Origin: Demequina litoralis
Lineage (GTDB): Bacteria; Actinomycetota; Actinomycetes; Actinomycetales; Demequinaceae
Assembly (NCBI RefSeq): GCF_030418455.1
Contig: NZ_JAUHPW010000003.1
Coordinates: forward strand, 248,001-312,000
Reading direction: 5' to 3'
DNA length: 64,000 bases
A program made the position numbers and the translations under genes. Shown piece after piece: positions 2,612-64,000 of this stretch; the first letter of the stretch is position 1, and every line of letters starts with the position of its first letter. Under the pieces are notes generated by a model. That model saw only the letters and a list, made by a program, of their open reading frames with translations, did no database searches and had not been told where the DNA came from.

Positions 2612-2682
2612 CGCATCGTCCCTGCTCCCGTCGGAACCGGCGTACGCCACCGCGCACGAGTCGCGCCACCAGGGACGATGCG
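2612..2682. repeat. Intergenic inverted pair of the 10-mer GGACGATGCG
   Basis: CGCATCGTCC (2612-2621) and GGACGATGCG (2673-2682) form an inverted pair 51 bp apart between the convergent bS22 and GH32 genes. This 10-mer occurs 32 times in the window; the full list is in the findings. No ORF is supported here. Confidence 0.8.
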
Positions 2683-2711
2683 CGGCGCACCCGGTCCCTT
2701 GCGCCGGTTGG

Positions 2712-2768
2712 GGCCCGGCGGGGACGGAGCCCGGCGGGGTCGGGGTCGGAGCCCGGCAGGGCCCGGCT
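2712..2768. repeat. Imperfect tandem GCCCGGC-rich repeat
   Basis: Four reiterations of GCCCGGCRGGG with spacers of variable length lie at the 3' end of the GH32 gene and overlap its stop codon. Probably a slipped-strand expansion; no function is assigned. Confidence 0.5.
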
Positions 2769-3990
2769 AGGGGAGCGCCAACGCGTGCGCCCGCGCGGCC
2801 GTCGCCTCCAGCGCCCAGCGCTCCCCCTCCGCCGGGTACGCGCGGAAGGTGCGCGAGCCCTCCCGGTCGAACACCTCGACGATCGACCCGTCGACCCAGA
2901 CCTCGGCGTCGTCCTCACCGCCGCACACCTCGCGGGGCGCGGCACCACCGCCCTCGCGTGCGACGGCGAGCGACCACGGTCCCTCGACCGCGGCCGTCCA
3001 CGCCGTGAGGGCGATGCCTCGAGCCGGGTCGACCGGCTCGCCCACCAGCGCACGGAGCTCCGCGACGGGTCGCATCCTGGCGAGCCCCGTCTCGTCCAGC
3101 ACCACCTCGCGGGGGAAGGTGAGCGTACCTGCCCAGCCCGCCGCGTCGACCGCGGCCTGCGGGCGCGCCTCGTCGCTCCAGCCGATCGCGAGCACGCGCC
3201 CGTCCACCGCGAGCAGCTGCGGCGCGTAGAAATCCGGCCCGCCGTCGAAGGGGACCGCGGCGGCGGGGGTGAAGGCGGGAGCGCCTCCCGCGTCGGCGAG
3301 ATCGCCCGTGAAGGCGAAGGTGCCGCGCGCCGAGTGGTCGAGCAGAAGCCACGACACGACCAGCACCCAGCGCCCGCCGATCGCGACCAGCTGCGGGCAC
3401 TCCCAGACGTCGCCGACGCGCGGCAGATGGTCGGGGACGTCGTCGGCGCGCAGCAGGGTGCCCAGCGGGACCCAGGCGTCGAGGTCGGCCGCGTCCCACA
3501 GGAGGACCGCGCCGCGGTCGTCGAGGCGTGAGCCCTGGAGCGCGTAGCGCCGGCCCCGCCAGCTGAAGACGAACGGGTCGCGGACGTCCTTGATGCGGGG
3601 ATCGGCGGGGTGGGCAAGCGTCATGGCGTCGGGTGGGGCCCAGGTGCCGTCGTCGCGCGCGGTCGCGATCGCGACGCCGACCTCTGCCGGTCCCGCCGGC
3701 GTGGCGCTGTAGACCAGGCGGGGCGGGCCGGCGCCGTCCGCGACCGCGACCCCCGACCAGCATCCACCCGCATCGATGGAGCCCTCCCGCGGCACCAGCG
3801 CGGGCGCGTGCTCGGTCCATGACACGAGGTCGGGGGAGCTGACGTGGGCCCAGTGGATGTCCCCCCAGCGCGGCGCGTGGGGGTTCCACTGCATCATCAC
3901 GTGCCAGCGGCCGTCCCACCGGCCGAGGCCGTTCGGGTCGTTGACCCAGCCCGTCGCGGGACGCGGGTGGAGGCGGGGGAAGGCGTCCAT
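2767..3990 (-). CDS. Glycoside hydrolase family 32 (invertase/levanase-type fructosidase)
   Basis: Hydrolyses beta-fructosyl linkages (sucrose, inulin or levan type). All three GH32 catalytic signatures are present: WVNDPNG at 15-21 with nucleophile Asp18, RDP at 137-139, and WEC with acid/base Glu197. The five-bladed propeller occupies roughly residues 5-290. A short C-terminal beta-sandwich ends at residue 407, a normal length for an intracellular member. No signal peptide is visible, so the enzyme is probably cytoplasmic and may act on imported sucrose or sucrose-6-phosphate. CAGGAT lies six bases before the ATG and may give a leaderless transcript. No transporter or regulator is adjacent, so the substrate is uncertain. 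Confidence 0.9.
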   Translation of the reverse strand: MDAFPRLHPRPATGWVNDPNGLGRWDGRWHVMMQWNPHAPRWGDIHWAHVSSPDLVSWTEHAPALVPREGSIDAGGCWSGVAVADGAGPPRLVYSATPAGPAEVGVAIATARDDGTWAPPDAMTLAHPADPRIKDVRDPFVFSWRGRRYALQGSRLDDRGAVLLWDAADLDAWVPLGTLLRADDVPDHLPRVGDVWECPQLVAIGGRWVLVVSWLLLDHSARGTFAFTGDLADAGGAPAFTPAAAVPFDGGPDFYAPQLLAVDGRVLAIGWSDEARPQAAVDAAGWAGTLTFPREVVLDETGLARMRPVAELRALVGEPVDPARGIALTAWTAAVEGPWSLAVAREGGGAAPREVCGGEDDAEVWVDGSIVEVFDREGSRTFRAYPAEGERWALEATAARAHALALP

Positions 3991-4062
3991 GACCCCATCC
4001 TGGCGCGGGCGGGGTCGGGTCCGCAGGGTCGAGCGCCGGCAGCGGCGCGCGGCACGATGCGC

Positions 4063-4902
4063 TCAGGCCTCGCGCGCGCCCTCCGACTCGCGGCGGGGCC
4101 TGCCGAGCAGCGTGCGCAGCGCCGCCTTGACGCCGCGTGTCACCTGGATCGTGACCCACGCGGCGCCCGTGACCGACGACTTCACGATGCCGCGGCGGCC
4201 GCTCTTGCGGCGCTTGCGGAACTCGCGCACCTGCCAGCCGCGCTCCTTGGCGAGCCGGCGCATCCGCGGATCCGGGTTGATGGTGCACGGGTGGCCGACC
4301 ACCTCGAGCATCGCCGCGTCGTTGACCGAGTCGCCGTACGCGTGGCTCGCGGCGAGGTCGACGCCGCGCTCGGCGGCGAGCGCCCGCACCGCCGTGGCCT
4401 TGGCCGGGCCGTGGAGGAAGTCGCTCTCGAGCCGGCCGGTGTAGTGGCCGTCGCGGTGCTCCGCGACGGTGCCCAGCGCGCCGGTCGCGCCGATGCGCCG
4501 CGCGATCAGGCGCCCGACCTCGATGGGGGAGGCCGTGACGAACCACACCTCGTCGCCACGCTCGAGGTGCTCGTCGATGATCGCCTTGGTGCCGGGGTAG
4601 ACGCGGCTGGCGAGCAGCTCGTCGTAGACCTCTTCGGCGACCGCGGTCATCTCCGCCACGGACCACCCCTTGATGATGCCCAGGCCCTGCTCGCGGATCC
4701 GGTCCATCTGGTCCTTCGTCTCGCCGAAGAGGACGTAGGTGGCCTGCTCGTACCCGAGCTTGAGGATGTCGCGGAGGTTGAAGTAGTCGCGCTGCCACAG
4801 GCCGCGCGCGATGTGGAACGAGCTCGCGCCCCGGATGACCGTGTTATCGACGTCGAAGAACGCGGCGACCCGTGCGGGGGCGTGCTCGGCGTCCGTGGTC
4901 AC
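4063..4902 (-). CDS. HAD-IB family phosphatase (SerB-like)
   Basis: A 279-residue haloacid-dehalogenase-superfamily hydrolase of subfamily IB. Motif I is FFDVDNT at 15-21 (nucleophile Asp17, acid/base Asp19), motif II is FVTASP, and motif III/IV is HAYGDSVNDAAML with the metal-binding Asp pair. The helical cap lies between motif I and motif II. Actinobacteria carry several such proteins, some acting on phosphoserine or lysophosphatidic acid; the substrate cannot be read here. The GTG start at 4902 lies six bases after TACAGT, so a leaderless mRNA is predicted. The gene is divergent from the glutaredoxin-like gene 51 bp away. Confidence 0.88.
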   Translation of the reverse strand: MTTDAEHAPARVAAFFDVDNTVIRGASSFHIARGLWQRDYFNLRDILKLGYEQATYVLFGETKDQMDRIREQGLGIIKGWSVAEMTAVAEEVYDELLASRVYPGTKAIIDEHLERGDEVWFVTASPIEVGRLIARRIGATGALGTVAEHRDGHYTGRLESDFLHGPAKATAVRALAAERGVDLAASHAYGDSVNDAAMLEVVGHPCTINPDPRMRRLAKERGWQVREFRKRRKSGRRGIVKSSVTGAAWVTIQVTRGVKAALRTLLGRPRRESEGAREA

Positions 4903-4908
4903 CGCTCA

Positions 4909-4947
4909 ACTGTACCGAGATGCGCAAGCATCCCCCGTGCCTATCCT
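4909..4947. promoter_or_regulatory. Divergent leaderless -10 elements for the HAD and glutaredoxin-like genes
   Basis: Minus-strand TACAGT (4914-4909) is six bases from the GTG at 4902. Plus-strand TATCCT (4942-4947) is six bases from the ATG at 4954. Initiation about 7 bases after each -10 would place the transcript end at the start codon. Confidence 0.6.
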
Positions 4948-4953
4948 GGGAGC

Positions 4954-5190
4954 ATGCCCGCCCGCGTCATGCTCTACACCCGCGTCGGCTGCCACCTCTG
5001 CGAGGACGCCCGCGACGTGGTCGCCGCGGCCTGCGCCGCGCTCGAGCAGGACTGGGAGGAGGTCGACATCGACGCCGATCCGGAGCTGCGCGCGCGTTAC
5101 GGCGACGAGATCCCCGTGGCGACCGTCGACGGCGAGACCGTCGGGTTCTGGCGCATCGACCCCGAGAGGCTGCGCGGAGCCCTCTCGTAA
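4954..5190 (+). CDS. Glutaredoxin-like thiol-disulfide protein, 78 residues
   Basis: A minimal thioredoxin-fold protein: MLYTRVGCHLC places the CxxC pair at residues 13 and 16, and the cis-proline region is EIPVATV. This matches the actinobacterial glutaredoxin family protein (DUF836-like/mycoredoxin relatives) that reduces disulfides in the cytoplasm. There is no signal peptide. The ATG at 4954 is supported by a -10 TATCCT six bases upstream and by the absence of a Shine-Dalgarno. The histidine phosphatase gene follows after 19 bp. Confidence 0.85.
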   Translation: MPARVMLYTRVGCHLCEDARDVVAAACAALEQDWEEVDIDADPELRARYGDEIPVATVDGETVGFWRIDPERLRGALS

Positions 5191-5209
5191 CCGGGTGACA
5201 ATAGGACCC

Positions 5210-5827
5210 ATGTCCCGCGTGCACGTCCTTCGCCACGGCCATGTCCACAACCCCGACGGGGTGCTGTACGGCCGCCTTCCCGAGTTCCGCCTGTCCGATG
5301 CGGGGCAGCAGATGGCGCAGGCCGTCGCGGACCACCTCGTGGGCTCCGGGGCGAAGGTGGGCCGCGTGGTCGCGTCGCCGCTGCTGCGCGCCCAGCAGAC
5401 CGCCGCGCCCGTCGCCGCCGCGTACGGCCTCGACATCGCGACGGACGAGCGGATCATCGAGGCCGACAACGCCTTCGCCGGCGGCCCGACCCCCACCCCG
5501 CTCACCCTCGCCCACCCGCGGAACTGGTGGCTGCTGCGCAACCCCTTCCGCCCGTCGTGGGGCGAGCCCTACAAGGAGCAGGCGGCGCGCATGCACGCCG
5601 CGATCGTCGACGCCGCCGCCGCGAACCCCGGCTCCGAGACCGTCATGGTGAGCCACCAGCTGCCGATCTGGGTCGCGCGCTGCGCAGCCGAGGGCCGCTC
5701 GTTCGTCCACGACCCGCGCTCGCGCGAGTGCGCGCTGGCGTCGCTCACGAGCTTCGACGTCGACGGCGACCGCGTCTCCTTCGTCGGCTACAGCGCGCCT
5801 GCCGCCCACATCGAGGCGCCCAGGTGA
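5210..5827 (+). CDS. Histidine phosphatase family protein (phosphoglycerate-mutase-like)
   Basis: A 205-residue branch-1 histidine phosphatase. LRHGH at residues 7-11 carries the catalytic His9 in the RHG triad. SPLLRAQQTA supplies the second Arg, Glu in IIEADN is the likely proton donor, and VSHQLPI contains the second catalytic His. The substrate is unknown; relatives act on phosphosugars, phosphoglycerate or nucleotides. Its stop overlaps the GTG of the TlpA-like gene by four bases (GTGA), placing it at the head of the cytochrome c biogenesis operon. This arrangement is common in actinobacteria although no functional link is proven. Confidence 0.88.
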   Translation: MSRVHVLRHGHVHNPDGVLYGRLPEFRLSDAGQQMAQAVADHLVGSGAKVGRVVASPLLRAQQTAAPVAAAYGLDIATDERIIEADNAFAGGPTPTPLTLAHPRNWWLLRNPFRPSWGEPYKEQAARMHAAIVDAAAANPGSETVMVSHQLPIWVARCAAEGRSFVHDPRSRECALASLTSFDVDGDRVSFVGYSAPAAHIEAPR

Positions 5828-6384
5828 GGCCCGCCGCCCGCATCGCGATCCTTGCCGCGATCGTCCTCGCCATCGTCCTCACCGTCGTCGGCTGCGCGCC
5901 CGGCGACGCCGCCCAGTCGCCCGGCTACGTCTCGGGCGACGGCACGGTGACGGTGTTCGACGACGGCGTCGAGGTCGCCCTCGCGGGCACGTCCTTCCAG
6001 GGCGACGCCGTCGACGTGGCCGACTACCGCGGCCAGGTGGTGCTCATCAACGTCTGGTACGCCTCGTGCCCGCCGTGCCGCGCGGAGGCTCCCGACATCG
6101 CTGCGCTGGACGCGCGAGACGACGTCCAGGTGATCGGCGTCAACGGCCGCGACGATGCGCCCACCGTCGAGGCCTTCGACCGCACCTTCGGCATCGCGTA
6201 CCCGTCGATCGACGACACCGACGGCGCCGCCACCGCCACGCTCCAGGGCATCGTCGCGATGAACGCGGTGCCCACCACCCTGGTGGTCGACCCCGAGGGC
6301 GCGCTGTACGCCCGGATCATCGGCACCGCGGACCCCTCGACCCTGCGGTCGCTGGTCGACGAGGCCGCCGGGGCGGCCGCGTGA
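5824..6384 (+). CDS. TlpA/ResA-like thioredoxin lipoprotein for cytochrome c maturation
   Basis: A 186-residue, membrane-anchored, extracytoplasmic thioredoxin. The N-terminal hydrophobic stretch ends in a lipobox, VVGC, with lipidated Cys24. The redox motif WYASCPPC has its Cys pair at 82 and 85, and the cis-Pro loop is NAVPTTLVV. By analogy with ResA/CcmG it reduces the CXXCH cysteines of apocytochrome c before haem attachment. The neighbours ccdA, resB and ccsA supply electrons, haem ligation and haem delivery. GTG start and four-base overlap at both ends indicate translational coupling. Confidence 0.9.
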   Translation: MRPAARIAILAAIVLAIVLTVVGCAPGDAAQSPGYVSGDGTVTVFDDGVEVALAGTSFQGDAVDVADYRGQVVLINVWYASCPPCRAEAPDIAALDARDDVQVIGVNGRDDAPTVEAFDRTFGIAYPSIDDTDGAATATLQGIVAMNAVPTTLVVDPEGALYARIIGTADPSTLRSLVDEAAGAAA

Positions 6385-7145: not shown

Positions 7146-8755
7146 TGGCCCGCGTCAAGCTCGACAACTACGTGGTGCCCGCCGCGCCGCGCCTGGGGTT
7201 CACGGGCTGGCTGCGGTGGATCTGGCGCCAGGTCACGTCGATGCGCGTCGCGCTCATCCTGCTGCTCCTGCTCGCGCTCGCGTCCATCCCGGGCTCGGTG
7301 CTGCCGCAGTGGCCCCAGGACGCCGCGGCGACCCGCCAGTTCGTCGCCGACAACGCCTTCTGGGGCCCCGTCCTCGACGCCACCGGCTTCCTCGACGTCT
7401 TCGGCTCGGCGTGGTTCACGGCGATCTACCTGCTGCTGTTCGCATCGCTCATCGGCTGCATCACGCCGCGCGCGATCCACCACTACCGCGAGCTGCGCCG
7501 CCCGGTCGCGGCCACGCCGCGCTCCCTCGCGCGCTACGACGGCACGGGTCCCGAGCACATCGATGCCACGCCGGACGATGCGGTCGCGGCCGCCCGCGCG
7601 GTGCTGCGACCGCGCGCGGGCTGGCTGGGCGCCGTCCGCGGCTACCGCGTGCGCGTCGACCGCCGCGACGACGGCGCGATCGCGCTCGCGGCGGAGACCG
7701 GCCACGTGCGCGAGCTCGGCAACCTCGTGTTCCACGCGTCGCTCGTGCTCGTGCTCGTCGCCGTCGCCTACGGCACGCTGTTCACCTACCGCGGTCAGGC
7801 GATCGTGGTCGAGGGGCGCTCCTTCACGAACGCCGTCGCGGCGTACGACACGTTCTCCTCGGGCAGCCTCTTCGACGCCTCCGACCTCGACCCGTTCACG
7901 CTGCGGCTCGACTCGCTCGACGCATCGTTCTCCGACACGGGGCGCCCGCTGCACTTCCAGGCGAACGTCGCGTTCACCGAGCCCGGCGAGGCGCCGGTCG
8001 CGGAGACCATCGCCGTCAACCACCCGCTCGAGTCCGGCGACGCGAAGATCTACCTCCAGGGCAACGGCTACGCGCCCGTCCTCACCGTCCGCGACGCCGC
8101 GGGCGAGGTGGCGTTCTCGGGGCCCGTCGTGTTCCTCGCGCAGGATGCCGCCTACACCTCGACCGGCGTCGTCAAGGTGCCGGACGTCACCACGGGCGAG
8201 CAACTCGGCTTCAAGGCGACGCTGTACCCGAGCTTCGTCGAGGGCCCCTTCGCGGTCGGCTCGGTGCACCCCGACCCCGCGAACCCGGTCATCGAGATGA
8301 CCGCGTACACGGGCGACCTCGGCCTCGACGCCGGCGTGCCGCAGAACGTCTACACGCTCGACGAGTCCCAGCTCAGCCCCGTCCAGGACGACGAGGGCCT
8401 GCCCGTGACGCTGCGCCTCGCGCTCGGGGAGACGGTCGAGCTGCCCGACGGCCTCGGCTCCGTGACGTTCGAGGAGCTGCCGCGCTACGGCGCCTTCGAC
8501 CTCCGCGCGGACCCGTCGCTGCCGTTCCTCCTCGTCGCCGCGATGCTGACGCTCGCGGGCCTCGCGACGTCGCTGTTCGCCTCCCGCCGCAAGGTGTGGG
8601 TGGTCGCGCGTGCGGAGGACGGAACTACAGTGGTCACCGGCGCCGCGTATGCGCCGGCGCACGATGCGGGCGTCGGGGTGGTCCTCGAGCGCGCCATGGC
8701 CGCCGCGGCGGGCCGCGATCCGGCCCCCGAGGCGGGGGAGAGAGAGCAGCCATGA
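7145..8755 (+). CDS. resB: Cytochrome c biogenesis protein ResB (CcsB-type)
   Basis: A 536-residue membrane protein of the system II haem ligation complex, partner of CcsA. Three N-terminal helices occur near residues 25-45 (ILLLLLALASIPGSVLPQWP), 85-105 and 195-215. They are followed by a long extracytoplasmic domain and a final helix near residue 460. The segment RELGNLVFHASLVLVL carries the conserved His of the ResB family. One copy of the 10-mer GGACGATGCG (7573) encodes a Pro-Asp-Asp-Ala loop. Starts and ends with TGATG/ATGA overlaps inside the operon. Confidence 0.93.
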   Translation: MARVKLDNYVVPAAPRLGFTGWLRWIWRQVTSMRVALILLLLLALASIPGSVLPQWPQDAAATRQFVADNAFWGPVLDATGFLDVFGSAWFTAIYLLLFASLIGCITPRAIHHYRELRRPVAATPRSLARYDGTGPEHIDATPDDAVAAARAVLRPRAGWLGAVRGYRVRVDRRDDGAIALAAETGHVRELGNLVFHASLVLVLVAVAYGTLFTYRGQAIVVEGRSFTNAVAAYDTFSSGSLFDASDLDPFTLRLDSLDASFSDTGRPLHFQANVAFTEPGEAPVAETIAVNHPLESGDAKIYLQGNGYAPVLTVRDAAGEVAFSGPVVFLAQDAAYTSTGVVKVPDVTTGEQLGFKATLYPSFVEGPFAVGSVHPDPANPVIEMTAYTGDLGLDAGVPQNVYTLDESQLSPVQDDEGLPVTLRLALGETVELPDGLGSVTFEELPRYGAFDLRADPSLPFLLVAAMLTLAGLATSLFASRRKVWVVARAEDGTTVVTGAAYAPAHDAGVGVVLERAMAAAAGRDPAPEAGEREQP

Positions 8756-9720
8756 ATCCGACCGACCTCAGCGTGATGGCGCTGGGCGGCGCGACCGTCC
8801 TCTACGCGATCGCGATGGTCGCCTACGCGATCCGCCTGGCCCGCGTGGCCGACGAGAAGGTGGCCGCCAGGGCCGCCGCAGCCGTGCCCGTGGGCGCCGG
8901 CGGGCCCGCGACGCCGTCGACGTCCGGCGGCGAGGCGCCCGCCGCATCGTCCCGTGGCGCGCGCTCCGCGAAGGCCGCGGGCATCGCCCGCTCGAGCACG
9001 CTCGTCGGCGCGGTCCTCCACGGCGTGGGCCTGGCCGCGCGCGGCATCGACGCCGGCCACGTGCCGTGGTCGAACATGTACGAGTACACGATCTCGGGCT
9101 CGTTCTTCGCGGTGGTCGCGTTCCTCGTCCTGCAGCGCCGGCGCGACGTCGCGTACCTCGGCGCAGGCGTCACGGGCATGGCGACCATCTCGCTCGGCCT
9201 CGCGCTCACCGTCCTCTACAAGGACGTCGACACGCTGCCGCCCGCGCTGCAGAGCTACTGGCTGATCATCCACGTGTCGATCGCCACCATCGTCACCGGC
9301 ATCTTCGCGGTCTCGTTCGTGGTGAGCGCGCTGCAGCTCATGCGCGACTCGCGCGACGGAGGCTCGCGCTGGACCGGCGACCGGATGCGCTGGCTCGACG
9401 CGGTGCCCGCCGCATCGTCCCTCGAGGCGCTGTCCTTCCGGCTCAACGCCGTCGGCTTCGTGCTGTGGACGTTCACGGTGATGGCCGGCGCGATCTGGGC
9501 CGAGCACGCGTGGGGCCGCTACTGGGGCTGGGACCCCAAGGAGGTCTGGTCCTTCGTCATCTGGGTGCTCTACGCCGCGTACCTCCACGCGCGCACCACC
9601 CAGGGCTGGGCCGGCCGCCGCAGCGCGTGGCTCGCGATCGCCGGCTTCACCGCGCTCATCATGAACTTCACCGTGGTCAACCTGTTCTTCCAGGGCCTTC
9701 ACACGTATGCGGGGTCCTGA
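8752..9720 (+). CDS. ccsA: Cytochrome c biogenesis protein CcsA/ResC (haem handling)
   Basis: A 322-residue polytopic protein with the tryptophan-rich WWD signature WGRYWGWDPKEVWSF near residues 254-268, which binds haem for transfer to apocytochrome c. External His ligands are expected in HGVGLAARGIDAGH and in the last helices. The segment after the first helix (about residues 40-75) is a low-complexity Ala/Gly/Ser linker carrying a 10-mer copy at 8943 (Ala-Ser-Ser); a second copy is at 9411. The system II set TlpA-CcdA-ResB-CcsA is complete. Confidence 0.94.
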   Translation: MNPTDLSVMALGGATVLYAIAMVAYAIRLARVADEKVAARAAAAVPVGAGGPATPSTSGGEAPAASSRGARSAKAAGIARSSTLVGAVLHGVGLAARGIDAGHVPWSNMYEYTISGSFFAVVAFLVLQRRRDVAYLGAGVTGMATISLGLALTVLYKDVDTLPPALQSYWLIIHVSIATIVTGIFAVSFVVSALQLMRDSRDGGSRWTGDRMRWLDAVPAASSLEALSFRLNAVGFVLWTFTVMAGAIWAEHAWGRYWGWDPKEVWSFVIWVLYAAYLHARTTQGWAGRRSAWLAIAGFTALIMNFTVVNLFFQGLHTYAGS

Positions 9721-10866
9721 GTGAGGATCGCGCTGGTCCTGGACGACAGCATCGACCGGACCGACGGGGTCCAGCAGTACGTCCTCACGCTGGGCGCGTA
9801 CCTGTCCCGCGAGGGCCACGAGGTGCATTACCTCAGCTCGTCCGCCGAGCGCACCGACGTGACCGTCCACTCGCTCGCGCGCAACGTCGGCGTGACGTTC
9901 AACGGCAACGGGCTGCGCGTCCCGCTGCCCGCGTCGCGCGCCGGGATCCGTGCGGTGCTCGAGCGCGAGCGCTACGACGTCATCCACGTCCAGACGCCGC
10001 ACTCGCCGCTGTTCGCCGCGCGCGTGGTGGACGAGGCGCGGAGGCTCTTCGGGGACGCCGTGCGCATCGTCGGCACCTTCCACATCCTTCCCGACGGCAA
10101 GGTGTCCTCGTGGGGGACGCACCTGCTCGGGCGGGTGCTGCGGCGCAACCTGCGCAGGTTCGACGCGTTCTGCGCGGTGTCCGAGCCGGCGCGCGAGTTC
10201 GCCGCGTCCGCGTTCGGGATCTCGGCGCGGGTGATCCCGTGCCCCGTCGACGTCGCGGGCTTCGCGGCTTCCGCCGCCGCGGCCGAGCGGGTGCCGGGTG
10301 CGGACGGCCGGCTGGTCGTCGCGTTCCTCGGCCGGCTCGTCGAGCGCAAGGGCGTGCTCGAGCTTGTGCATGCGCTGGATGCGCTGCCCGTCGAGGTGCA
10401 GGACCGGATCGACGTGCGCATCGGCGGCAAGGGGCCGCTGCTGGGCGCGCTCGAGGCCGCGATCGAGGTGAGCGCGCTGGCGCGGGTGTCGCTGCCCGGC
10501 TTCGTCGCCGAGCAGGACAAGGCCGCGTTCTACGCCGACGCGGACATCGCGGTGTTCCCCGCGACCGGCGGCGAGAGCTTCGGGATCGTGCTGGTCGAGG
10601 CGATGGCGTCGCAGGCCGGGCGCGGCTCGGGCATGGTGCTCGCGGGTGCGAACCCCGGCTACCTCTCGGTGATCGGGGACGATGCGCGGGTCTCCGTCGA
10701 CGCGCGCGACGCCGAGGGCTTCGCGGCGGCGCTCCGGCGGCTCATCGAGGACGCCGATCTGCGTGCCGAGCTGCACGCGGAGCAGGCCTCCCGGGTCGCG
10801 CGCTTCGACGTCGAGACGGTCGGAGCCCAGGTGCTGGAGCTGTACGGCCCCTCCGCTTCCCGATGA
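9721..10866 (+). CDS. Glycosyltransferase family 4 (GT-B fold)
   Basis: A 381-residue cytoplasmic glycosyltransferase. The N-terminal half begins RIALVLDDSIDRTDGVQQYV and contains HVQTPHSPL and GTFHILPDG, resembling the acceptor domain of PimA/PimB-like mannosyltransferases. The C-terminal half has FLGRLVERKGVLELV and the sugar-nucleotide EX7E-type motif in GGESFGIVLVEAMA. The GTG start touches the ccsA stop (TGAGTG), so it is probably co-transcribed with ccsA, although no role in cytochrome maturation is known. Donor and acceptor are unknown. The gene ends 24 bp before a palindromic repeat. Confidence 0.88.
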   Translation: MRIALVLDDSIDRTDGVQQYVLTLGAYLSREGHEVHYLSSSAERTDVTVHSLARNVGVTFNGNGLRVPLPASRAGIRAVLERERYDVIHVQTPHSPLFAARVVDEARRLFGDAVRIVGTFHILPDGKVSSWGTHLLGRVLRRNLRRFDAFCAVSEPAREFAASAFGISARVIPCPVDVAGFAASAAAAERVPGADGRLVVAFLGRLVERKGVLELVHALDALPVEVQDRIDVRIGGKGPLLGALEAAIEVSALARVSLPGFVAEQDKAAFYADADIAVFPATGGESFGIVLVEAMASQAGRGSGMVLAGANPGYLSVIGDDARVSVDARDAEGFAAALRRLIEDADLRAELHAEQASRVARFDVETVGAQVLELYGPSASR

Positions 10867-14570: not shown

Positions 14571-15458
14571 ATGTCCGTCGACACCCCCGCCCGCCCGACC
14601 GCCGCATCGTCCCCCGAGGGGCGGCGCCGCAAGGGGCTCATGCCCGAGGGCTCCGCCTACATCGCCGTCGGCATCGCGCTCGTCGGCGTGGGGCTGACCC
14701 TCGGCCCGATCCTCTACCTCATCCTCGGCGGCTTCCGCACCCAGGGCGACCTCGCCGCGAACCCCACCGGCTTCCCCGACCCGTTCATGTGGCAGAACTA
14801 CTGGGAGATCCTGTCCCAGCCGCTGTTCTGGAGGCAGCTGCTCAACTCGACGCTGGTCGCCGTCGCGACCACCGCGGGCGTGGTGCTGTTCGGGACGATG
14901 GCGGCGTACCCGCTCGCACGGTACTCCTTCAAGGGCCGCGAGCTCGTCTTCGTGATCTTCACCACCGGCCTGATGTTCCCGCTCACCGTCGCCGTGCTGC
15001 CGCTGTACCTGCTGCTGCGCGACATGGGCATCTCGGGCCTGTGGGGCCTGGTAATCCCGCAGATCGCCTTCGGCCTGCCGGTCACGATCATCATCCTGCG
15101 GCCGTTCCTCGCGGCGCTGCCCAAGGAGCTCGAGGAGGCGTCGTTCATGGACGGCATCTCCCGCATCGGCTTCTTCTGGCGGATGCTGCTGCCGCTCGCC
15201 CGGCCCGCGATGGTGACGGTGGGCGTGCTCGCGTTCATCGGCTCGTGGAACGCCTACCTGCTGCCCCTGCTGCTGCTCACCGGCGACCCCGCCGGGATGA
15301 CCCTGCCGCTCGGCGTCACCACGTTCCAGGGCCAGCACGCGGCCGCGACGACCATGATCATGGCGTACACGTCGCTCGCGATGCTGCCGGCGCTCGCGTT
15401 CTTCCTGCTGATGGAGCGGCGCATCGTCGACGGCCTCACCGGGGCGGTGAAGGGATGA
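14571..15458 (+). CDS. Sugar ABC transporter permease (MalG-type)
   Basis: A 295-residue permease partner with six predicted helices. The EAA loop is EASFMDGISRIGFFWRMLLPLA, followed by the characteristic FIGSWNAYLLPLLLL. The ATG at 14571 lies eight bases after CAGG. A GTG at 14562, which overlaps the previous stop as GTGA, is an alternative that would add three residues. The stop overlaps the GH3 start by four bases, so transport and hydrolysis are coupled in one operon. A copy of the 10-mer at 14603 encodes Ala-Ala-Ser-Ser in the N-terminal tail. Confidence 0.91.
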   Translation: MSVDTPARPTAASSPEGRRRKGLMPEGSAYIAVGIALVGVGLTLGPILYLILGGFRTQGDLAANPTGFPDPFMWQNYWEILSQPLFWRQLLNSTLVAVATTAGVVLFGTMAAYPLARYSFKGRELVFVIFTTGLMFPLTVAVLPLYLLLRDMGISGLWGLVIPQIAFGLPVTIIILRPFLAALPKELEEASFMDGISRIGFFWRMLLPLARPAMVTVGVLAFIGSWNAYLLPLLLLTGDPAGMTLPLGVTTFQGQHAAATTMIMAYTSLAMLPALAFFLLMERRIVDGLTGAVKG

Positions 15459-31232: not shown

Positions 31233-31324
31233 CGCATCGTCCGCCCGGCGGGGACGGGCGGCGGGACGATGCGCGGGGACGGGCGGCGGGACGATGCGCG
31301 GGGACGGGCGGCGGGACGATGCGC
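31233..31324. repeat. Inverted 10-mer plus three perfect 25-bp tandem repeats containing the 10-mer
   Basis: CGCATCGTCC at 31233-31242 is followed by three identical 25-bp units (31250-31274, 31275-31299, 31300-31324). Each unit ends in GGGACGATGCGC and starts with GGGGACGGGCGGC. The first copy and the first unit can form a stem of about 11 bp plus flanking pairs. The array fills most of the 200-bp divergent region between the alditol-oxidase-like and geranylgeranyl reductase genes. Confidence 0.93.
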
Positions 31325-31361
31325 GGGCAGCGCCCCGCACCGAGCACCGAGCGCGCCCCTC

Positions 31362-52943: not shown

Positions 52944-53672
52944 TCAGGCGACGTGGATGCCGCACTCCGTCTTGTCCTGGCCCGCCCAGCGGCCCGCGCG
53001 CCGGTCCTCGCCGGGCGCGACCTGGCGGGTGCACGGCCAGCAGCCGATGCTCGGGTAGCCCTGCGCGACCAGCGGGTTGCGCGGCAGCCCGTTGCGGTCC
53101 TCGTACGCGTCGACCGCGGCGTCGTCCCACAATGCGAGCGGGTTGATCTTCACCAGCCCGTGCTTGGCGTCCCACGACACGACCGGCATCTCGGAACGCG
53201 TGGCGGCGTCGACGCGGCGCGCGCCCGTGACCCACGCCGAGTACCCCTCGAGCGCGCGCCGGAGCGGGTCGACCTTGCGCAGCTGGCAGCACAGTCCGGG
53301 GTTGCGCGCGAACAGGTCCTTGCCGTGCTCGGCGTCCTGCTCCGCGACGGTCCGCTCCGGCGTCACGTCCACGATGGTGATGGGGAACGATGCGGCGGCC
53401 GCGTCGCGCGTGGCGAGCGTCTCGGGGAAGTGGTACCCGGTCTCGAGGAACAGCACGTCGACGCCCTCGAGGCGCGTCCCGAACAGGTGCGGCAGGATCG
53501 TGTCCTGCATGGACGATGCGACGGCGAGGTCGCGTCCGAACGTCGCCACCGCCCAGTCGGCGATGTGCTCCGCCGATGCGGTGAGCAGGCGCGCGTTGAC
53601 CGCGGCGCACGTCTCCGCGTTCCACTCGGTGGGGTTGAGCAGGGTGAGCGACGCCACCCCTGGCACGGTCAT
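52944..53672 (-). CDS. cysH: Phosphoadenylyl/adenylyl-sulfate reductase
   Basis: A 242-residue thioredoxin-dependent reductase converting activated sulfate to sulfite. The PP-loop-like start is LAVASSMQDTILPHL, and FLETGYHFPET is conserved. The cysteines GLCCQLRKVDPL and PSIGCWPCTRQ plus the C-terminal ECGIH active-site Cys mark the [4Fe-4S] (APS-type) group. A 10-mer copy at 53511 encodes Ala-Ser-Ser. The ATG overlaps the sirA stop by four bases (ATGA), so the two are coupled. cysD/cysN do not follow; rarD does. Confidence 0.94.
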   Translation of the reverse strand: MTVPGVASLTLLNPTEWNAETCAAVNARLLTASAEHIADWAVATFGRDLAVASSMQDTILPHLFGTRLEGVDVLFLETGYHFPETLATRDAAAASFPITIVDVTPERTVAEQDAEHGKDLFARNPGLCCQLRKVDPLRRALEGYSAWVTGARRVDAATRSEMPVVSWDAKHGLVKINPLALWDDAAVDAYEDRNGLPRNPLVAQGYPSIGCWPCTRQVAPGEDRRAGRWAGQDKTECGIHVA

Positions 53673-55847: not shown

Positions 55848-57791
55848 ATGGACGCAGCCCCGGCCGCCTTCGACCCCGCCGCGTTCCTGCGCGGGCTCGA
55901 CGCGCTCCATGCCTCCGGCGCGGGGCCCGAGGCCGCCGAGCGCTACCTGCGCGACGCGCTCGCCGCGACCGCGGGCGACCGTCCGGCGCGGCTCCAGGTG
56001 CTCAACGAGGCGATGGGTCATCACCGGTCCGTCGGTCGGCACGACGATGCGGTGCGCGAGGCGATCGAGGCGCTCGCCCTCGTCGACCAGCTCGGCCTCG
56101 CCGGCACCGAGGCGCACGCGACCACGCTCGTCAACGCCGCCACCGCGCATCGTGCCGCGGGACTCCACGACGACGCGCTCGCGCTGTACCGCGCCGCGCG
56201 TGCCGCGGCCGCGACGGCCTTCCCGGCGGGGGACCGGCGCCTCGCCGCGCTGCGCAACAACCTCGCGCTCGCGCTCGGCGCGACCGGCGACCACGCCGGC
56301 GCGCGCGACGAGCTGCTCGGGGCGCTCGCGATCCTCGAGTCCGCCGCCGTCGACCCCGGCGCCGACCTCGACATCGCCGCGACGCGCTCGAACCTCGCGC
56401 TCGAATGCCTCGCGCTGGGCCGTGGGGACGATGCGGCGAGGCACACCGCGGCCGCGCTCGCCATCGTGCGCGAGGGCGGTCACGCCGAGGACCCGCACGC
56501 GGCGGCCATGCTCGCGAGCCATGCGCAGCAGCGCCTGCTGGCGGGTCACGCCGCGCAGGCGGTCGACCTCTACGCCGAGGCGCTCGCGATCGTCGAGCGT
56601 GCCTACGGAGCCGGGTCCGATGCGTACGCGATCACCGCCGGCAACCTCGCCGACGCGCGCCGTGTCGCCGCGCAGGCCGCGCCGGGTGCCGCCCCCGACG
56701 CGGTCGTCGAGCCGGCACGGGCCGCGACCCCGACCGCCGCATCGTCCCCCGCGGGGGAGGCGCCGACCGCGCACCGGGCCGACGGCCCCACCGGCATGGA
56801 GCTCGCCCGCGAGCTGTGGGAGGACCACGTCCGCCCGCTGCTCGCGGAGCGCTACCCCGACCACCGCGGCCGCATCGCCGCGGGACTCGTCGGGCACGGC
56901 TCCGAGTGCTACGGCTTCGACGACGCCGTCTCGCGCGACCACGACTTCGGGCCCGGCCTGTGCCTGTGGCTCACCGCGTCGGACCATGCCGAGATCGGCG
57001 CCGCGCTGCAGGCGGACTACGAGCGCCTGCCGCGCGTCCTCCACGGGCTCGGACCGCGGGTCGAGACCGCACGCGCCCGGGGCGAGGGACGGCGGACCGG
57101 CGTGTTCGAGATCGGCGAGTTCTTCACCTCGGTCGCCGGGCGGCCGTCCGCCCCGACGGCGGACAGCCCCCACGAGTGGATGCTCCTCGAGGAGGCGACG
57201 CTCGCGGCCGCGACCAACGGCGCGGTCTTCGCCGACCCGCTCGGGGCGTTCAGCGCGGCCCGCAACGGGTTCCGGCGCATGCCCGAGGACGTGCGCCTCG
57301 CCCGGATCTCGCAGCGCCTCGGCATGATCGCTCAGGCCGGCCAGTACAACGTGCCGCGCATGCTCGCCCGGGGCGACGGCGAGGCCGCCTGGCTCGCGGT
57401 CGGCGAGCTCGCGCGCGCCGCCGCCTCCCTCGTCATGCTGCTCAACGGGCCCACCGCGGTCGGCTACCTGCCCTACTACAAGTGGCACTTCGCGGCGCTG
57501 CGCCGGCTCGCCGCGCGTCCCGCGTCGCGCCTGCCCGAGGCGCATCGGGACCTGTCCCAGATCCTGCGCCTCGCGTCCGCCGCGTGCCTGGGCGGCGCCG
57601 GCTTCGGCGAGGGCGGGTCGGGCGCGGGTCCCGCGCGAGAGCGGCTCGAGGCCGCGATCGAGCGGCTGAGCGCGCGCATCGTCGCCGAGCTGCGGGTGCA
57701 GGGGCTGTCGCGCTCGGACGCGACGTTCCTCGAGCACCACCGCGGCGAGGTGCAGGCACGCATCCGCGACCCGTGGCTGAGGGCGCTGTGA
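55848..57791 (+). CDS. TPR-like and DUF4037 nucleotidyltransferase-fold protein
   Basis: A 647-residue cytoplasmic protein. Residues about 1-270 form helical TPR-like repeats rich in Ala (ARLQVLNEAMGHHRSVGRHDDAV, ALYRAARAAAATAFPAGDRRLAALRNNLALALGATGDHAGA). After an Ala/Pro linker, the DUF4037 domain (about 310-640) has GHGSECYGFDDAVSRDHDFGPGLCLWL, which looks like a GS-x-DxD nucleotidyltransferase active site. EWMLLEEATLAAATNG and YLPYYKWHFAALRRLA complete it. The substrate is unknown. The following DUF4125 gene overlaps by four bases. Two 10-mer copies (56426, 56738). Start ATG follows GCGAGGACC. Confidence 0.86.
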   Translation: MDAAPAAFDPAAFLRGLDALHASGAGPEAAERYLRDALAATAGDRPARLQVLNEAMGHHRSVGRHDDAVREAIEALALVDQLGLAGTEAHATTLVNAATAHRAAGLHDDALALYRAARAAAATAFPAGDRRLAALRNNLALALGATGDHAGARDELLGALAILESAAVDPGADLDIAATRSNLALECLALGRGDDAARHTAAALAIVREGGHAEDPHAAAMLASHAQQRLLAGHAAQAVDLYAEALAIVERAYGAGSDAYAITAGNLADARRVAAQAAPGAAPDAVVEPARAATPTAASSPAGEAPTAHRADGPTGMELARELWEDHVRPLLAERYPDHRGRIAAGLVGHGSECYGFDDAVSRDHDFGPGLCLWLTASDHAEIGAALQADYERLPRVLHGLGPRVETARARGEGRRTGVFEIGEFFTSVAGRPSAPTADSPHEWMLLEEATLAAATNGAVFADPLGAFSAARNGFRRMPEDVRLARISQRLGMIAQAGQYNVPRMLARGDGEAAWLAVGELARAAASLVMLLNGPTAVGYLPYYKWHFAALRRLAARPASRLPEAHRDLSQILRLASAACLGGAGFGEGGSGAGPARERLEAAIERLSARIVAELRVQGLSRSDATFLEHHRGEVQARIRDPWLRAL

Positions 57792-60080: not shown

Positions 60081-60269
60081 GCCGCGTCTCCGGCGGCGTC
60101 CGCCGGCGTCGCCGGTCGGGCGGTCCGGGCGCCGCCCCGGGACGCGGGACGATGCGCGCCGTCCCCGCCGCGCTGGCACCGGGTGCCGCTGCGGCATGGC
60201 ACCATTCCTCCCGGGGGGAACCGGCACGGGCTGACGCGCGTTCTCCGTCCGAGGGAAAACGGAGGACAC

Positions 60270-61148
60270 GTGGGCGGCAGGAAGTACTTCAACGGGCTCA
60301 AGACCACCGGTCTGTTCGTGCTGCTGTGGGCGGTGATGCTCACGCTCGGCACGTTCATCGGCGGCGGCCAGTACCTCTGGCTCTTCGCGCTCCTGTCCGT
60401 GGCGGGCACCGCCTTCGGCTACTGGAACTCCGCCTCGCTGGCGATCCGCGCGATGCACGCGCGGCCCGTGACCGAGGTCGAGCAGCCGGCCATGTACCGC
60501 ATCGTCCGCGACCTCAGTCGCGAGGCGAACCAGCCGATGCCGCAGCTCTACGTCTCGCCCACCGCGGCGCCCAACGCGTTCGCGACCGGCCGCAACCCCC
60601 AGAACTCCGCGGTGTGCTGCACCGAGGGCATCCTCGAGCTGCTCGACGAGCGCGAGCTGCGCGGCGTGCTCGGCCACGAGCTCATGCACGTGTACAACCG
60701 CGACATCCTCATCGGCTCCGTCGCCGCGGCCTTCGCGGGCATGATCACCGCGGTCGCGCAGATGCTGTTCTTCTTCGGCGGCGGCCAGTCGAACCGGGAG
60801 AACCCGCTCGGCGCGATCGGCCTGCTCGCCATGCTCATCCTCGCGCCGCTCGCCGCGTCGCTCATCCGCCTCGCGATCTCGCGCACGCGTGAGTACGACG
60901 CGGACGAGGACGGCGCCTCGCTCACCGGCGACCCGCTCGCGCTCGCCTCGGCGCTGCGCAAGCTCGAGCAGGGCACGCGCGCGCGTCCGCTCAAGGACAC
61001 CCCGCAGCTCGAGAACGTCTCGCACATGATGATCGCCAACCCGTTCCGCGGCGAGGGTCTCGCGAACCTCTTCGCGACGCACCCGCCCATGGACCAGCGC
61101 ATCGCCCGCCTCGAGGACATGGCGCGCACCCGCGGCTACCTGCGCTGA
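60270..61148 (+). CDS. htpX: M48-family membrane zinc metalloprotease HtpX
   Basis: A 292-residue inner-membrane quality-control protease. Two N-terminal helices (GLFVLLWAVMLTLGTFIGGG and LFALLSVAGTAFGYW) are followed by the M48 catalytic motif GHELMHVYNRDIL, whose HExxH binds zinc. The third ligand Glu lies in SRTREYDADEDGA after two more helices, and the conserved FATHPPMDQRIARL ends the protein. GTG start with GGAGGACAC upstream. Degrades misfolded membrane proteins with the active site facing the cytoplasm. Confidence 0.94.
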   Translation: MGGRKYFNGLKTTGLFVLLWAVMLTLGTFIGGGQYLWLFALLSVAGTAFGYWNSASLAIRAMHARPVTEVEQPAMYRIVRDLSREANQPMPQLYVSPTAAPNAFATGRNPQNSAVCCTEGILELLDERELRGVLGHELMHVYNRDILIGSVAAAFAGMITAVAQMLFFFGGGQSNRENPLGAIGLLAMLILAPLAASLIRLAISRTREYDADEDGASLTGDPLALASALRKLEQGTRARPLKDTPQLENVSHMMIANPFRGEGLANLFATHPPMDQRIARLEDMARTRGYLR

Positions 61149-61186: not shown

Positions 61187-61192
61187 TAGCGT
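61187..61192 (+). promoter_or_regulatory. Leaderless -10 of the isochorismatase-like gene
   Basis: TAGCGT followed by GGGGGC and the ATG at 61199. Confidence 0.55.
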
Positions 61193-61198
61193 GGGGGC

Positions 61199-61753: not shown

Positions 61754-61801
61754 CGCGTCGGGCCGCACGCGTCGGCATGCGGCCATCCCGGTGAACCCCC
61801 G

Positions 61802-61830
61802 TTCACTTCTCGCGACTTCTCGCGTAGGTT
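61802..61830 (+). promoter_or_regulatory. Promoter of the MpaB-like gene with leaderless spacing
   Basis: TTCACT (61802-61807), a 17-bp spacer, and TAGGTT (61825-61830), seven bases before the ATG at 61838. The spacer contains the direct repeat ACTTCTCGCG twice. Confidence 0.65.
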
Positions 61831-61837
61831 GCGAGTC

Positions 61838-62755
61838 ATGAGACGCGACCACTGGAAGCGCGTGAACGAGTCGCTCGACCCGGAGCGCGACTTCGTCGAG
61901 ATCTACCGGAACCTGGTGATGCACGAGTTCCCCTGGGACATGAACCAGGCGCTCAGCTTCGCGCTGTTCCGCACGTACGCGGTGCCCGGCATCGGCGCGC
62001 TGCTCGACCGCACCGGCGAGTTCACCGGCCGCGCGCAGAAGCGCTACGACGACACCGCGCTCCTCCTCGAGGTCCCCTCCCGCCTGGGCTTCGAGCATCC
62101 CGACGCGCGCACCGCGATCCGCCGCATCAACCAGATGCACCGCGCCTACGACATCCCCGACCACGAGCTCCGCTACGTCCTGTCGACGTTCGTCGTCGTC
62201 CCCAAGCGCTGGCTCGACGACTACGGCAAGCGGCCGCTCACCGGCGGCGAGCTCGAGGCGTCGGTGCGCTACTACCGCGCGCTCGGCGCGCACATGGGCA
62301 TCCGCGACGTGCCGGAGACCTACGAGGGCTTCGCCGGCCTCATGGACGCCTACGAGGAGGAGCACTTCGCCTTCGACGAGGGCGGGCGCCGGGTCGCCGA
62401 CGCGACCCTCGCGCTGCTGCTGACCTTCCGTCCGCGCGTGCCCGACGCCCTCATGGAGCCGTTCAGCCGGGCGCTCATGGACGATGCGCTGCTCGAGGCC
62501 TTCCGCTACCCGCGGCCGCCGCGCGCCGTCGTGGCCGGCTCCCGGCTCGCCGTGCGTCTCCGCGGCAGGATGGCGGGGCTGCTCCCGTCCGATGCGCGCC
62601 CGACTCGCGTCGAGGACCTGCCGTGGATCCGCAGCTACCCGGACGGCTACCGCCTCGAGAATCTCGGCACGTTCCCGTCCGGCTGCCCGGTCCCGCACGG
62701 CGAGCGGCGCGAGGATGCCCGCTCGACGGGTGAGGAGCGCGCCGCGGGGGGATGA
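61838..62755 (+). CDS. MpaB-like/DUF2236 oxygenase family protein
   Basis: A 305-residue, mostly helical protein. HEFPWDMNQALSFALFRTYAVPGIGALLDRTGEF starts the domain, HRAYDIPDHELRYVLSTFVVVPKRWL includes a likely haem-ligand region, and YRALGAHMGIRDVPETYEGF is conserved in the group. Family members include latex-clearing protein-like b-type haem oxygenases, but most are uncharacterised. The ATG at 61838 is seven bases from TAGGTT; the TTG at 61829 would overlap the -10. The last ~30 residues are a polar tail (ERREDARSTGEER). A 10-mer copy at 62479 encodes Met-Asp-Asp-Ala. Confidence 0.82.
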   Translation: MRRDHWKRVNESLDPERDFVEIYRNLVMHEFPWDMNQALSFALFRTYAVPGIGALLDRTGEFTGRAQKRYDDTALLLEVPSRLGFEHPDARTAIRRINQMHRAYDIPDHELRYVLSTFVVVPKRWLDDYGKRPLTGGELEASVRYYRALGAHMGIRDVPETYEGFAGLMDAYEEEHFAFDEGGRRVADATLALLLTFRPRVPDALMEPFSRALMDDALLEAFRYPRPPRAVVAGSRLAVRLRGRMAGLLPSDARPTRVEDLPWIRSYPDGYRLENLGTFPSGCPVPHGERREDARSTGEERAAGG

Positions 62756-62813
62756 TGCTGGGAGGGGCTCCCGCGCCGATCGGCCGGGGCCCCGGCGGGT
62801 CGGAGGTGACCTC

Positions 62814-63173: not shown

Positions 63174-63194
63174 CGGCCGCTCCCGGCGCCGCCC

Positions 63195-63686
63195 CTAGCG
63201 GAAGTTGACGAACTGGAGCGCGGCGTCGACGTCGGCGCCCTTGAGCAGCGCGATGGTCGCCTGCAGGTCGTCGCGCGACTTCGAGGTCACGCGTAGCTCG
63301 TCTCCCTGGATGAGCGCCTTGACCGACTTGGGGCCCTCGTCGCGCACCAGCTTGGTGAGCTTCTTCGCGACGTCCTGCGCGATGCCCTCCTTGACCTTGG
63401 CGACGAGGCGGTACTCCTTGCCCGACTGGACCGGCTCGCCCCACTCGAGCGCCTTCATCTCGATCTGGCGCTTGGCGAGCTTGCCGATGAACACGTCGAG
63501 GATCGCCTTGACGCGCTCGGGGCTGTTGGCCTTCATGAGGATGTCCTCGCCGGCGAACTCGATCGAGGCGCCCACGCCCTTGAAGTCGTAGCGCTGCGCG
63601 ATCTCCTTGGAAGCCTGGTTGAGCGCGTTGTCGACCTCCTGGCGGTCCACCTTGGACACCACGTCGAAGCTGCTGTCGCCTGCCAT
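63195..63686 (-). CDS. yajQ: YajQ family nucleotide-binding protein
   Basis: A 163-residue cytoplasmic protein with two ferredoxin-like domains. It begins [20 protein letters not shown] and contains [39 protein letters not shown] and [20 protein letters not shown], all typical of YajQ. Some relatives bind cyclic di-GMP; the role in actinobacteria is undefined. The ATG at 63686 has GAAGGAGATGAG upstream. It is divergent from tRNA-Tyr. Confidence 0.95.
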
Positions 63687-63776
63687 CTCATCTCCTTCCG
63701 GGCGCCGTCGGAGCGGCGCCACCACGTCTCGGGAGCCCGTCCCGGCCGCGATTCGCGTCGGGGGCTCGATCCTTGC

Positions 63777-63782
63777 TATCCT
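63777..63782 (+). promoter_or_regulatory. Likely -10 of the tRNA-Tyr gene
   Basis: TATCCT about 26 bases upstream of the mature tRNA 5' end. A clear -35 at the right distance is not visible. Confidence 0.4.
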
Positions 63783-63808
63783 TCCATGCGCGCCGCTTGC
63801 GGCGCATC

Positions 63809-63890
63809 GGCAGGTTGCCCGAGCGGCCAAAGGGAGCTGACTGTAAATCAGCCGTCATCGACTTCGGGGGTTCGAATCCCTCACCTGCCA
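63809..63890 (+). tRNA. tRNA-Tyr (anticodon GTA)
   Basis: An 82-nt tRNA. The acceptor stem GGCAGGT pairs with ACCTGCC. The anticodon stem GCTGA/TCAGC encloses the loop CTGTAAA with anticodon GTA at 63843-63845. A long variable arm typical of bacterial tRNA-Tyr follows, and the T-loop is TTCGAAT. The discriminator is A, and the 3' CCA is not encoded. Confidence 0.97.
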
Positions 63891-63897
63891 CATCTGG

Positions 63898-63928
63898 GAA
63901 GCGCCCCTCCTCCGGGAGGGGCGCTTCT
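63898..63928 (+). terminator. Intrinsic terminator after tRNA-Tyr
   Basis: GAAGCGCCCCTCC pairs perfectly with GGAGGGGCGCTTC (63915-63927), starting eight bases after the tRNA. The following T content is low (TGCGTTC). The remaining bases to 64000 contain one 10-mer copy (63959) and no gene I can support. Confidence 0.75.
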
Positions 63929-64000
63929 GCGTTCCCCGGGCGGACACCCCTCCACACGGGACGATGCGCATCCACGCTTCTCGCGGGATGTGCCCGTTCA

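Follow-up and report, generated by a model that had tools for sequence, protein, structure and literature searches.

A probable DNA uptake sequence with clade-wise dialects in the actinobacterium Demequina

DNA uptake sequences (DUS) are, to our knowledge, known only from Neisseriaceae and Pasteurellaceae. Here we describe a 10-mer, GGACGATGCG, that is scattered through a 64,000-nucleotide stretch of the genome of Demequina litoralis (contig NZ_JAUHPW010000003.1, positions 248,001 to 312,000; the whole stretch is called the window) and that is probably a DUS, a self-recognition watermark, of this Demequina. The passages of Frye and colleagues that deal with the DUS of Neisseriaceae (GCCGTCTGAA and its dialects) give 943-5,918 copies, a CTG core, inverted pairs and five genomes of the family without the word (PMC3630211). 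The uptake signal sequence (USS) of Pasteurellaceae comes in the types AAGTGCGGT and ACAAGCGGT, whose cores are set out in the relevant part of PMC12616744.

The Demequina word resembles the Neisseriaceae DUS, as those passages portray it, in being a 10-mer with a comparable number of copies (711-1,564 for dialect A, defined below, against 943-5,918), in having clade-wise dialects round an inner core, intergenic inverted pairs and some family genomes without the abundant word (PMC3630211), and in the presence of a solitary minor pilin, which there is ComP. It differs from it in sequence, the core being CGA(T/C)GC rather than CTG, in its Gram-positive host, in its few inverted pairs, in a solitary pilin that does not track the dialect, and in being known from sequence alone. 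With CGATGC as its core, and not CTG, the Demequina word is no member of the Neisseriaceae DUS by descent. With the Pasteurellaceae USS, so far as the source describes it, the word shares a short non-palindromic form, a strict inner core and clade-wise dialects (PMC12616744). The sequences are unrelated, however, and the flanks of the USS are AT-rich in the extended forms given there, whereas those of the Demequina word show weak G/C preferences only. The USS core GCGG of AAGTGCGGT does not occur in the Demequina word, which is therefore no member of that class by descent either. By descent it is neither DUS nor USS, and as an uptake sequence it would be the third to have arisen independently.

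Among actinobacteria, Micrococcus luteus is described in the sections concerned of PMC6370729 and PMC12849477 as competent, with ComEA and ComEC, by way of Tad/Flp pili. Demequina likewise encodes ComEA and ComEC, although the pilus proposed here is of type IVa. PMC12849477 nowhere uses the term 'uptake sequence', and no actinobacterial uptake sequence was found among the matches listed in open-access literature for Demequina, actinobacteria, Actinomycetota and Micrococcus luteus. Among the matches listed for the dialect words there were only papers that, by title, look unrelated.

Abundance, dialects and shared sites of the word

We call GGACGATGCG the dialect A word; the dialect B word is a 9-mer, GGCCGATGC, and the dialect C word is GCCCGACGCT. 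The source Demequina genome is coded G000 and the other genomes of the family G0xx; contigs are numbered C1, C12 and so on. The G000 draft (3,024,998 bases) holds 1,564 exact copies of GGACGATGCG, 793 forward and 771 reverse, or one per 1.9 kb, compared with five (2 forward, 3 reverse) of a control, the word read backwards. By its HemW, whose best named match is that of Demequina lignilytica at 84%, the genome belongs to Demequina (Demequinaceae). Within a 464-kb sample, consisting of the window and 400 kb of contig C1, GGACGATGCG was the top-scoring 10-mer, seen 191 times where a third-order Markov background predicts 6.8, so the count lies far above Markov expectation. The first-pass annotation had named many hundreds of copies without replichore bias as support for an uptake-type or binding motif, and both were found, the second in the samples: strand counts on 400 kb of C1 were 83:74, with no polarity seen, and those of dialect B over 20 stretches of the 2.76-Mb contig of G015 were 94:107 (heterogeneity chi-square 14.3, 19 degrees of freedom), or 52:58 and 42:49 in the two halves of that contig.

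The word is concentrated between genes. A 484-kb sample contained 203 copies, 137 of them genic, 64 intergenic and 2 on an edge, so that its density was 1.47 per kb in intergenic and 0.31 per kb in genic DNA, a 4.7-fold difference; for dialect B in G015 the intergenic density was 1.8 times the genic. The inner CGATGC forms a strict core, whose single-change variants showed little or no excess, while positions 1, 2, 3 and 10 are loose (C at position 1 was seen 52 times, with 16 expected). Neighbouring copies at most 80 bp apart made up 16 pairs (6.7 expected), nine of them inverted and two from a tandem array. Three facing pairs on C1, at 59318/59340, 219418/219442 and 321182/321200, form perfect 10-bp hairpins 17-24 nt past stops, with no clear T-run.

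Across 47 genomes of the family, GGACGATGCG had 711-1,564 copies in 15, 235 in G022 and 4-123 in the other 31. GGCCGATGC, which is one base off the dialect A word, reached 584-2,018 copies in 18 other genomes, with near-equal strands; G017 had 664 and the remaining 28 genomes 14-488, counts to be read against the higher background of a 9-mer and against 43-105 copies of its reversed control. GCCCGACGCT, counted in 100-kb samples, was the top 10-mer of G037 (34 seen, 0.8 expected) and was weaker in G026 (12 seen, 1.3 expected). No clear abundant word emerged in 100 kb each of G043 and G034. The three dialect words have C-G-A-(T/C)-G-C in common. In 100 kb of G027 a palindrome, TTTCACGTGAAA, gave six counts over both strands, that is, three places, which we take to be probable parS sites.

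Dialects mostly follow clades. The tree, built from LeuS and LepA, had as candidates the 39 family genomes with a comEC region in the set (the other 8 of the 47 lie outside it) and holds 36 rows, G006, G010 and G012 being omitted for a short or missing LeuS or LepA. Dialect A occupied one clade of ten rows, with G022 at its base, and 14 of the 15 dialect B rows fell in another clade that also contains G037, G032 standing outside. Dialect A appeared again in G017, and also in two sisters, G020 and G028, whose own neighbours (G043, G004 and G026) are without it.

Different dialects also occupy the same places in aligned genes. The alignments covered six comEC-region genes (10,467 columns; site tolerance 3) and contained 18 dialect A, 18 dialect B and 6 dialect C sites, of which three coincided between A and B, two between A and C and three between B and C, at four places in total, where 0.04-0.33 were expected. 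At LeuS columns 872-875, ten species carry B at 872-873 while G037 carries C and G013 carries A at 875; in HemW, B, A and C share column 416, B and A column 483, and B and C columns 975-976. The reversed dialect words had zero sites in these alignments. A common core, clade-wise dialects and coinciding aligned sites together are the hallmark of uptake sequences such as those of Neisseriaceae.

Individual copies in G000 were kept above background, defined by all aligned 10-mers without frame matching, in four relatives: 16/20 in G014 (background 0.37), 13/17 in G019 (0.39), 8/13 in G024 (0.26) and 6/9 in G023 (0.29). The LeuS of G019 shares 96.5% identity with its counterpart in G013 and 92-93% with those in G000 and G014, whereas LepA, HemW and HolA place G019 with G000 and G014; this discord indicates that genes move between these species. 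The LeuS of G019 derives from the G013/G042 side.

Copies of the word in the window

A scan of both strands found 34 exact copies of GGACGATGCG in the window, 19 on the plus and 15 on the minus strand, while 100 dinucleotide shuffles of the window gave a mean of 0.78 and a maximum of 4. The copies are as follows, with genes assigned by our own calls (a simple codon-model caller) and amino acids giving the reading of the word.

2612-2621, minus strand: intergenic; inverted pair with 2673
2673-2682, plus strand: intergenic; inverted pair with 2612
7573-7582, plus strand: ResB-like gene; Asp-Asp-Ala
8943-8952, minus strand: cytochrome c assembly gene; Ala-Ser-Ser
9411-9420, minus strand: cytochrome c assembly gene; Ala-Ser-Ser
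10677-10686, plus strand: coding; Asp-Asp-Ala
14603-14612, minus strand: transport permease gene; Ala-Ser-Ser
15613-15622, plus strand: GH3 gene; Asp-Asp-Ala
16648-16657, plus strand: GH3 gene; inverted pair with 16687
16687-16696, minus strand: GH3 gene; inverted pair with 16648
19452-19461, plus strand: AMP-binding gene; frame exception, Arg-Ile-Val
19510-19519, minus strand: AMP-binding gene; Asp-Asp-Ala
20083-20092, plus strand: AMP-binding gene; Ala-Ser-Ser
20332-20341, minus strand: AMP-binding gene; Asp-Asp-Ala
24499-24508, minus strand: enoyl-CoA hydratase-type gene; Asp-Asp-Ala
25637-25646, plus strand: coding; Asp-Asp-Ala
27244-27253, plus strand: TPP-enzyme gene; Asp-Asp-Ala
29489-29498, minus strand: chorismate-binding/methyltransferase gene; Asp-Asp-Ala
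31233-31242, minus strand: intergenic; inverted pair with 31264
31264-31273, plus strand: intergenic; in a 25-bp tandem array; inverted pair with 31233
31289-31298, plus strand: intergenic; in the 25-bp tandem array
31314-31323, plus strand: intergenic; in the 25-bp tandem array
33852-33861, plus strand: coding; Asp-Asp-Ala
39215-39224, minus strand: coding, in a respiratory complex I operon (recognised by eye); Ala-Ser-Ser
39778-39787, minus strand: coding; frame exception
42156-42165, plus strand: coding; Asp-Asp-Ala
46287-46296, minus strand: coding; frame exception
53511-53520, plus strand: coding; Ala-Ser-Ser
56426-56435, plus strand: DUF4037/TPR gene; Asp-Asp-Ala
56738-56747, minus strand: DUF4037/TPR gene; Ala-Ser-Ser
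60147-60156, plus strand: intergenic
60498-60507, minus strand: coding; frame exception
62479-62488, plus strand: coding; Asp-Asp-Ala
63959-63968, plus strand: intergenic; downstream of tRNA-Tyr

The first-pass annotation had listed 32 copies, all at exact positions, and had overlooked those at 46287 and 60498 on the minus strand; its 19 plus copies stand, while its 13 minus copies become 15. It had likewise placed about 22 of 24 coding copies in the frame that reads Asp-Asp-Ala or Ala-Ser-Ser. The 22 were recovered (14 and 8, respectively), now out of 26, and the exceptions it named, 19452 and 39778, are joined by 46287 and 60498. Its eight intergenic copies agree with our gene calls, and its inverted pairs were found where it had put them: 2612/2673 and 31233/31264 between genes, and 16648/16687 in the gene identified as GH3. 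The copies at 31264, 31289 and 31314 share a single tandem array of perfect 25-bp units (31248-31327, 3.2 units, in a divergent intergenic region), so the window holds about 32 independent copies.

Pilus, transport genes and a candidate receptor

A type IVa pilus locus lies at C1 284785-297714 and comprises PilB, PilT, PilC, PilA, minor pilins, PilD, PilM, PilN and PilO; Pfam supports PilB, PilT, PilC, PilA, PilD and PilM, weakly also PilO, and PilN is named by place alone. PilM was detected in 45 of 47 family genomes and ComEC in 46 of 47. In G000, comEA and comEC (by Pfam) are adjacent, between leuS and holA (by eye). The part of this actinobacterial pilus operon from the minor pilins to pilO occurs in two haplotypes, which differ even between the sisters G000 and G014. 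The pilus locus is also the second-longest word-free stretch of the sample. Six T2SSE matches in G000, including PilB and PilT, imply further filament or secretion ATPases that could serve in their place. T2SSE-type ATPases outside the pilus locus lie at C12:141501-142247 and C21:110620-111390 and perhaps belong to a Tad or secretion system.

In each of the six genomes searched with Pfam N_methyl, there was a single pilin besides those of the pilus locus. This solitary pilin sits near a metE-type and a GNAT gene, in some genomes with extra genes between (Pfam names from one locus), and in G000 occupies C19:138405-138809; there are partial matches to its unassigned C-terminal domain in other frames, for example at C18:65627 and C16:83054. 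Its Pfam match, in the two sequences concerned, is confined to the N-terminal methylation motif, and in the PDB it matches other pilins mainly along their N-terminal helix. A profile of five solitary pilins matched in 46 of 47 genomes, the pilus-locus PilA being also among the matches; of 30 pilin loci read, 27 had an intact solitary pilin, two were PilA and one was ambiguous. The pilin comparison used L198 in place of L237 (PilA of G031). The solitary pilin is the natural counterpart of ComP and the leading, if weak, candidate for the reader of the word. As the determinant of the dialect, neither the solitary pilin nor the pilus haplotype was supported by the alignment and sequences judged by eye (for pilus loci, among those listed of 21).

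Copies with one mismatch, counted per exact copy, numbered 1.96-2.29 in G006, G013 and G042 and 0.73-1.65 in a further eight species from the main A group, to which G006 was assigned through HemW identity and not through the tree. The ratio was high as well in G017 (1.93), G035 (1.82) and G022 (5.97). The values for G006, G013 and G042 hint at decay of the word after loss of the solitary pilin, and the three may represent one event.

We infer the following mechanism, from sequence-specific binding and uptake to drive, the choice of pilus and the word-reading protein. Extracellular DNA bearing GGACGATGCG would be caught by a receptor that recognises the word and sits on a pilus, most likely that of type IVa. 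Retraction of the pilus would pull the DNA in and pass it to ComEA and ComEC, and recombination would then insert it in the chromosome. Since word-bearing fragments would enter more often, copies born by mutation would spread and persist as transformation recurs (molecular drive), at any place where the coding sequence allows it, and an altered receptor specificity would move the whole genome to a new dialect.

Weighing the explanations, and a second family

Bias in codons, amino acids or mutation would account for the narrow choice of frames, 22 of the 26 coding copies in the window having one of two readings. The codons themselves refute it, and we allow it virtually no chance. In the 484-kb sample Asp-Asp-Ala was spelled GACGATGCG in 88 of 159 cases (5.5 expected) and Ala-Ser-Ser was spelled GCATCGTCC in 41 of 88 (0.42 expected; GCA makes up 3.2% of Ala codons), whereas the same codons in other orders occurred 0-7 times; moreover, intergenic density exceeds coding density. 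The explanation by codon and amino-acid usage that the first-pass annotation had named as fatal to its proposal is thereby removed. The intergenic enrichment would suit a multiplied transcription element, a terminator arm or part of a promoter, as would the three perfect hairpins just past stops and the orientation of copies near gene 3' ends, 25 of 32 being antisense and several lying before a -10-like box (by eye). On the other side, 137 of 203 copies are inside genes and most near-stop copies are without a second arm or T-run (by eye), and such an element seems very unlikely to us. Chi sites are over-represented, clade-variable and linked to recombination, and both Chi and the FtsK-orienting sequences (KOPS) are polar along the replichore. 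A recombination hotspot of the Chi type or an FtsK-orienting sequence would agree with what the passage concerned in PMC3630211 says of Chi words, that species differ in them and that they have links with recombination. The Demequina word, unlike Chi and KOPS, was not polar in the samples (83:74 on one contig of G000, 94:107 over the G015 stretches), which disfavours both so strongly that we regard either as extremely improbable.

HIP1 of cyanobacteria is a palindromic octamer, GCGATCGC, and the Demequina word recalls it in being dense (one copy per 1.9 kb), genome-wide and spread over both coding and intergenic DNA. Biased repair or a methyltransferase, with no part in uptake, might then have multiplied the word. 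GGACGATGCG, unlike HIP1, is no palindrome, yet it is strand-balanced; its dialects differ at several positions and not by one repair-prone base change, and we know of no dialect shift at shared sites in HIP1. We judge an origin of this type improbable. The word could instead be the site of a cytoplasmic protein, nucleoid-associated or concerned with repair, that organises, repairs or marks the chromosome and has co-evolved with its sites in each clade. This agrees with the even spread over both strands, the strict core, the above-background conservation in four relatives, and a like word in a family without PilM (see below). A passive site, however, supplies no spreading process, which is needed both for a change of dialect at the same places and for dialect A to turn up again in G020/G028 and G017. 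For these reasons we consider a cytoplasmic protein site unlikely, though worth keeping in view.

An uptake sequence with dialects mostly fits the features that can be read from the genomes. The word is abundant and non-palindromic, balanced between strands, enriched between genes and limited to few frames within them, split into clade-wise dialects, and accompanied by pilus and transport genes. The likeness to uptake sequences of Neisseria and Pasteurellaceae that the first-pass annotation had drawn gains support from the dialects with their fixed core, the intergenic enrichment, the coinciding sites and the pilus and competence genes.

Several observations count against an uptake sequence. 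A receptor that varies with the dialect was not seen among the solitary pilin types, compared by eye: types X and Y both occur with dialect A, and Y also with B. No full-length solitary pilin was found in at least five word-rich species (G006, G013, G042, G007 and G016), which gave pilus-locus pilins and partial matches only, and which nevertheless hold 928-1,079 copies of the A word (G006, G013, G042) or 983 (G007) and 659 (G016) of the B word. Conversely, ComEC, PilM and the solitary pilin are all present in G034 and G043, yet 100 kb of each had no abundant word. Conservation of individual copies was near or below background in six of ten relatives (4/14 in G018, background 0.27; 4/15 in G008, 0.22; 3/10 in G009, 0.22; and 1/11 in G013, 2/11 in G042 and 1/3 in G006, each with 0.24). 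Uptake predicts neither the excess of sense over antisense among coding copies in 484 kb (80 and 57) nor the antisense orientation of 25 of the 32 copies that lie between genes no more than 70 nt from a gene 3' end, the other 7 being sense. The longest word-free stretch of the sample, C1:107067-121292, measures 14.2 kb where the expected maximum is 14.4 kb, and depletion of the word from foreign DNA is not established by it. PilM, finally, was found in none of the 33 genomes of the second family described below, neither the 21 with its word nor the 12 without.

Two side observations concern these regions. Several antisense copies near gene 3' ends shortly precede a -10-like box of the next gene (by eye). 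The stretch C1:107067-121292 has a GC content of 0.67 and genes that, judged by eye, resemble an excisionase and a toxin-antitoxin pair; it is perhaps an island. GC content at third codon positions (GC3) was dropped as a marker of foreign genes, being uninformative because the word itself lowers it.

A second word, GTATGCCG, was first spotted in named loci of Intrasporangium, Serinicoccus, Ornithinimicrobium and Arsenicicoccus. In the family coded f17 it has 625-3,277 copies in 21 of 33 genomes (G375, G302, G186 and 18 more), with near-equal strands and 43-562 copies of the reversed control, and 7-71 copies in the other 12; outside f17 it never exceeded 180, 396 genomes of the order having been counted. 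From the presence of the word, f17 appears to be the family of the named loci, which we take to be Dermatophilaceae in GTDB. In G375 its strands stand at 133:132, its intergenic density is 2.5 times the genic, and there are more facing pairs than expected, ten with a spacing of 21-27 bp. Since none of the 33 f17 genomes has PilM, either this family relies on a different pilus or words of this type can do without one, and a type IVa pilus as a general requirement was rejected. GGATGCCG in Microbacteriaceae is not claimed as a further case, its intergenic density being 0.60 of the genic (29 of 333 intergenic); it is frequent inside genes of that family. It is possible, though we advance it only tentatively and with more doubt than the uptake role of GGACGATGCG itself, that uptake sequences were invented at least twice in actinobacteria, as GGACGATGCG in Demequina through a Gram-positive type IVa pilus and as GTATGCCG in the second family, probably Dermatophilaceae of GTDB, through another pilus. 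On that reading, it would be the word that limits gene exchange between species of these genera.

If GGACGATGCG is an uptake sequence, it would be the third independent case and would lie in a one-membrane (Gram-positive) group, which would mean that self-specific uptake evolves repeatedly. With 44 genomes and several dialects, and with the word absent from some species, the genus would make an origin by selection or by drive testable by comparison. An uptake role would further lead one to expect natural transformability in these bacteria and would tell which DNA they take up.

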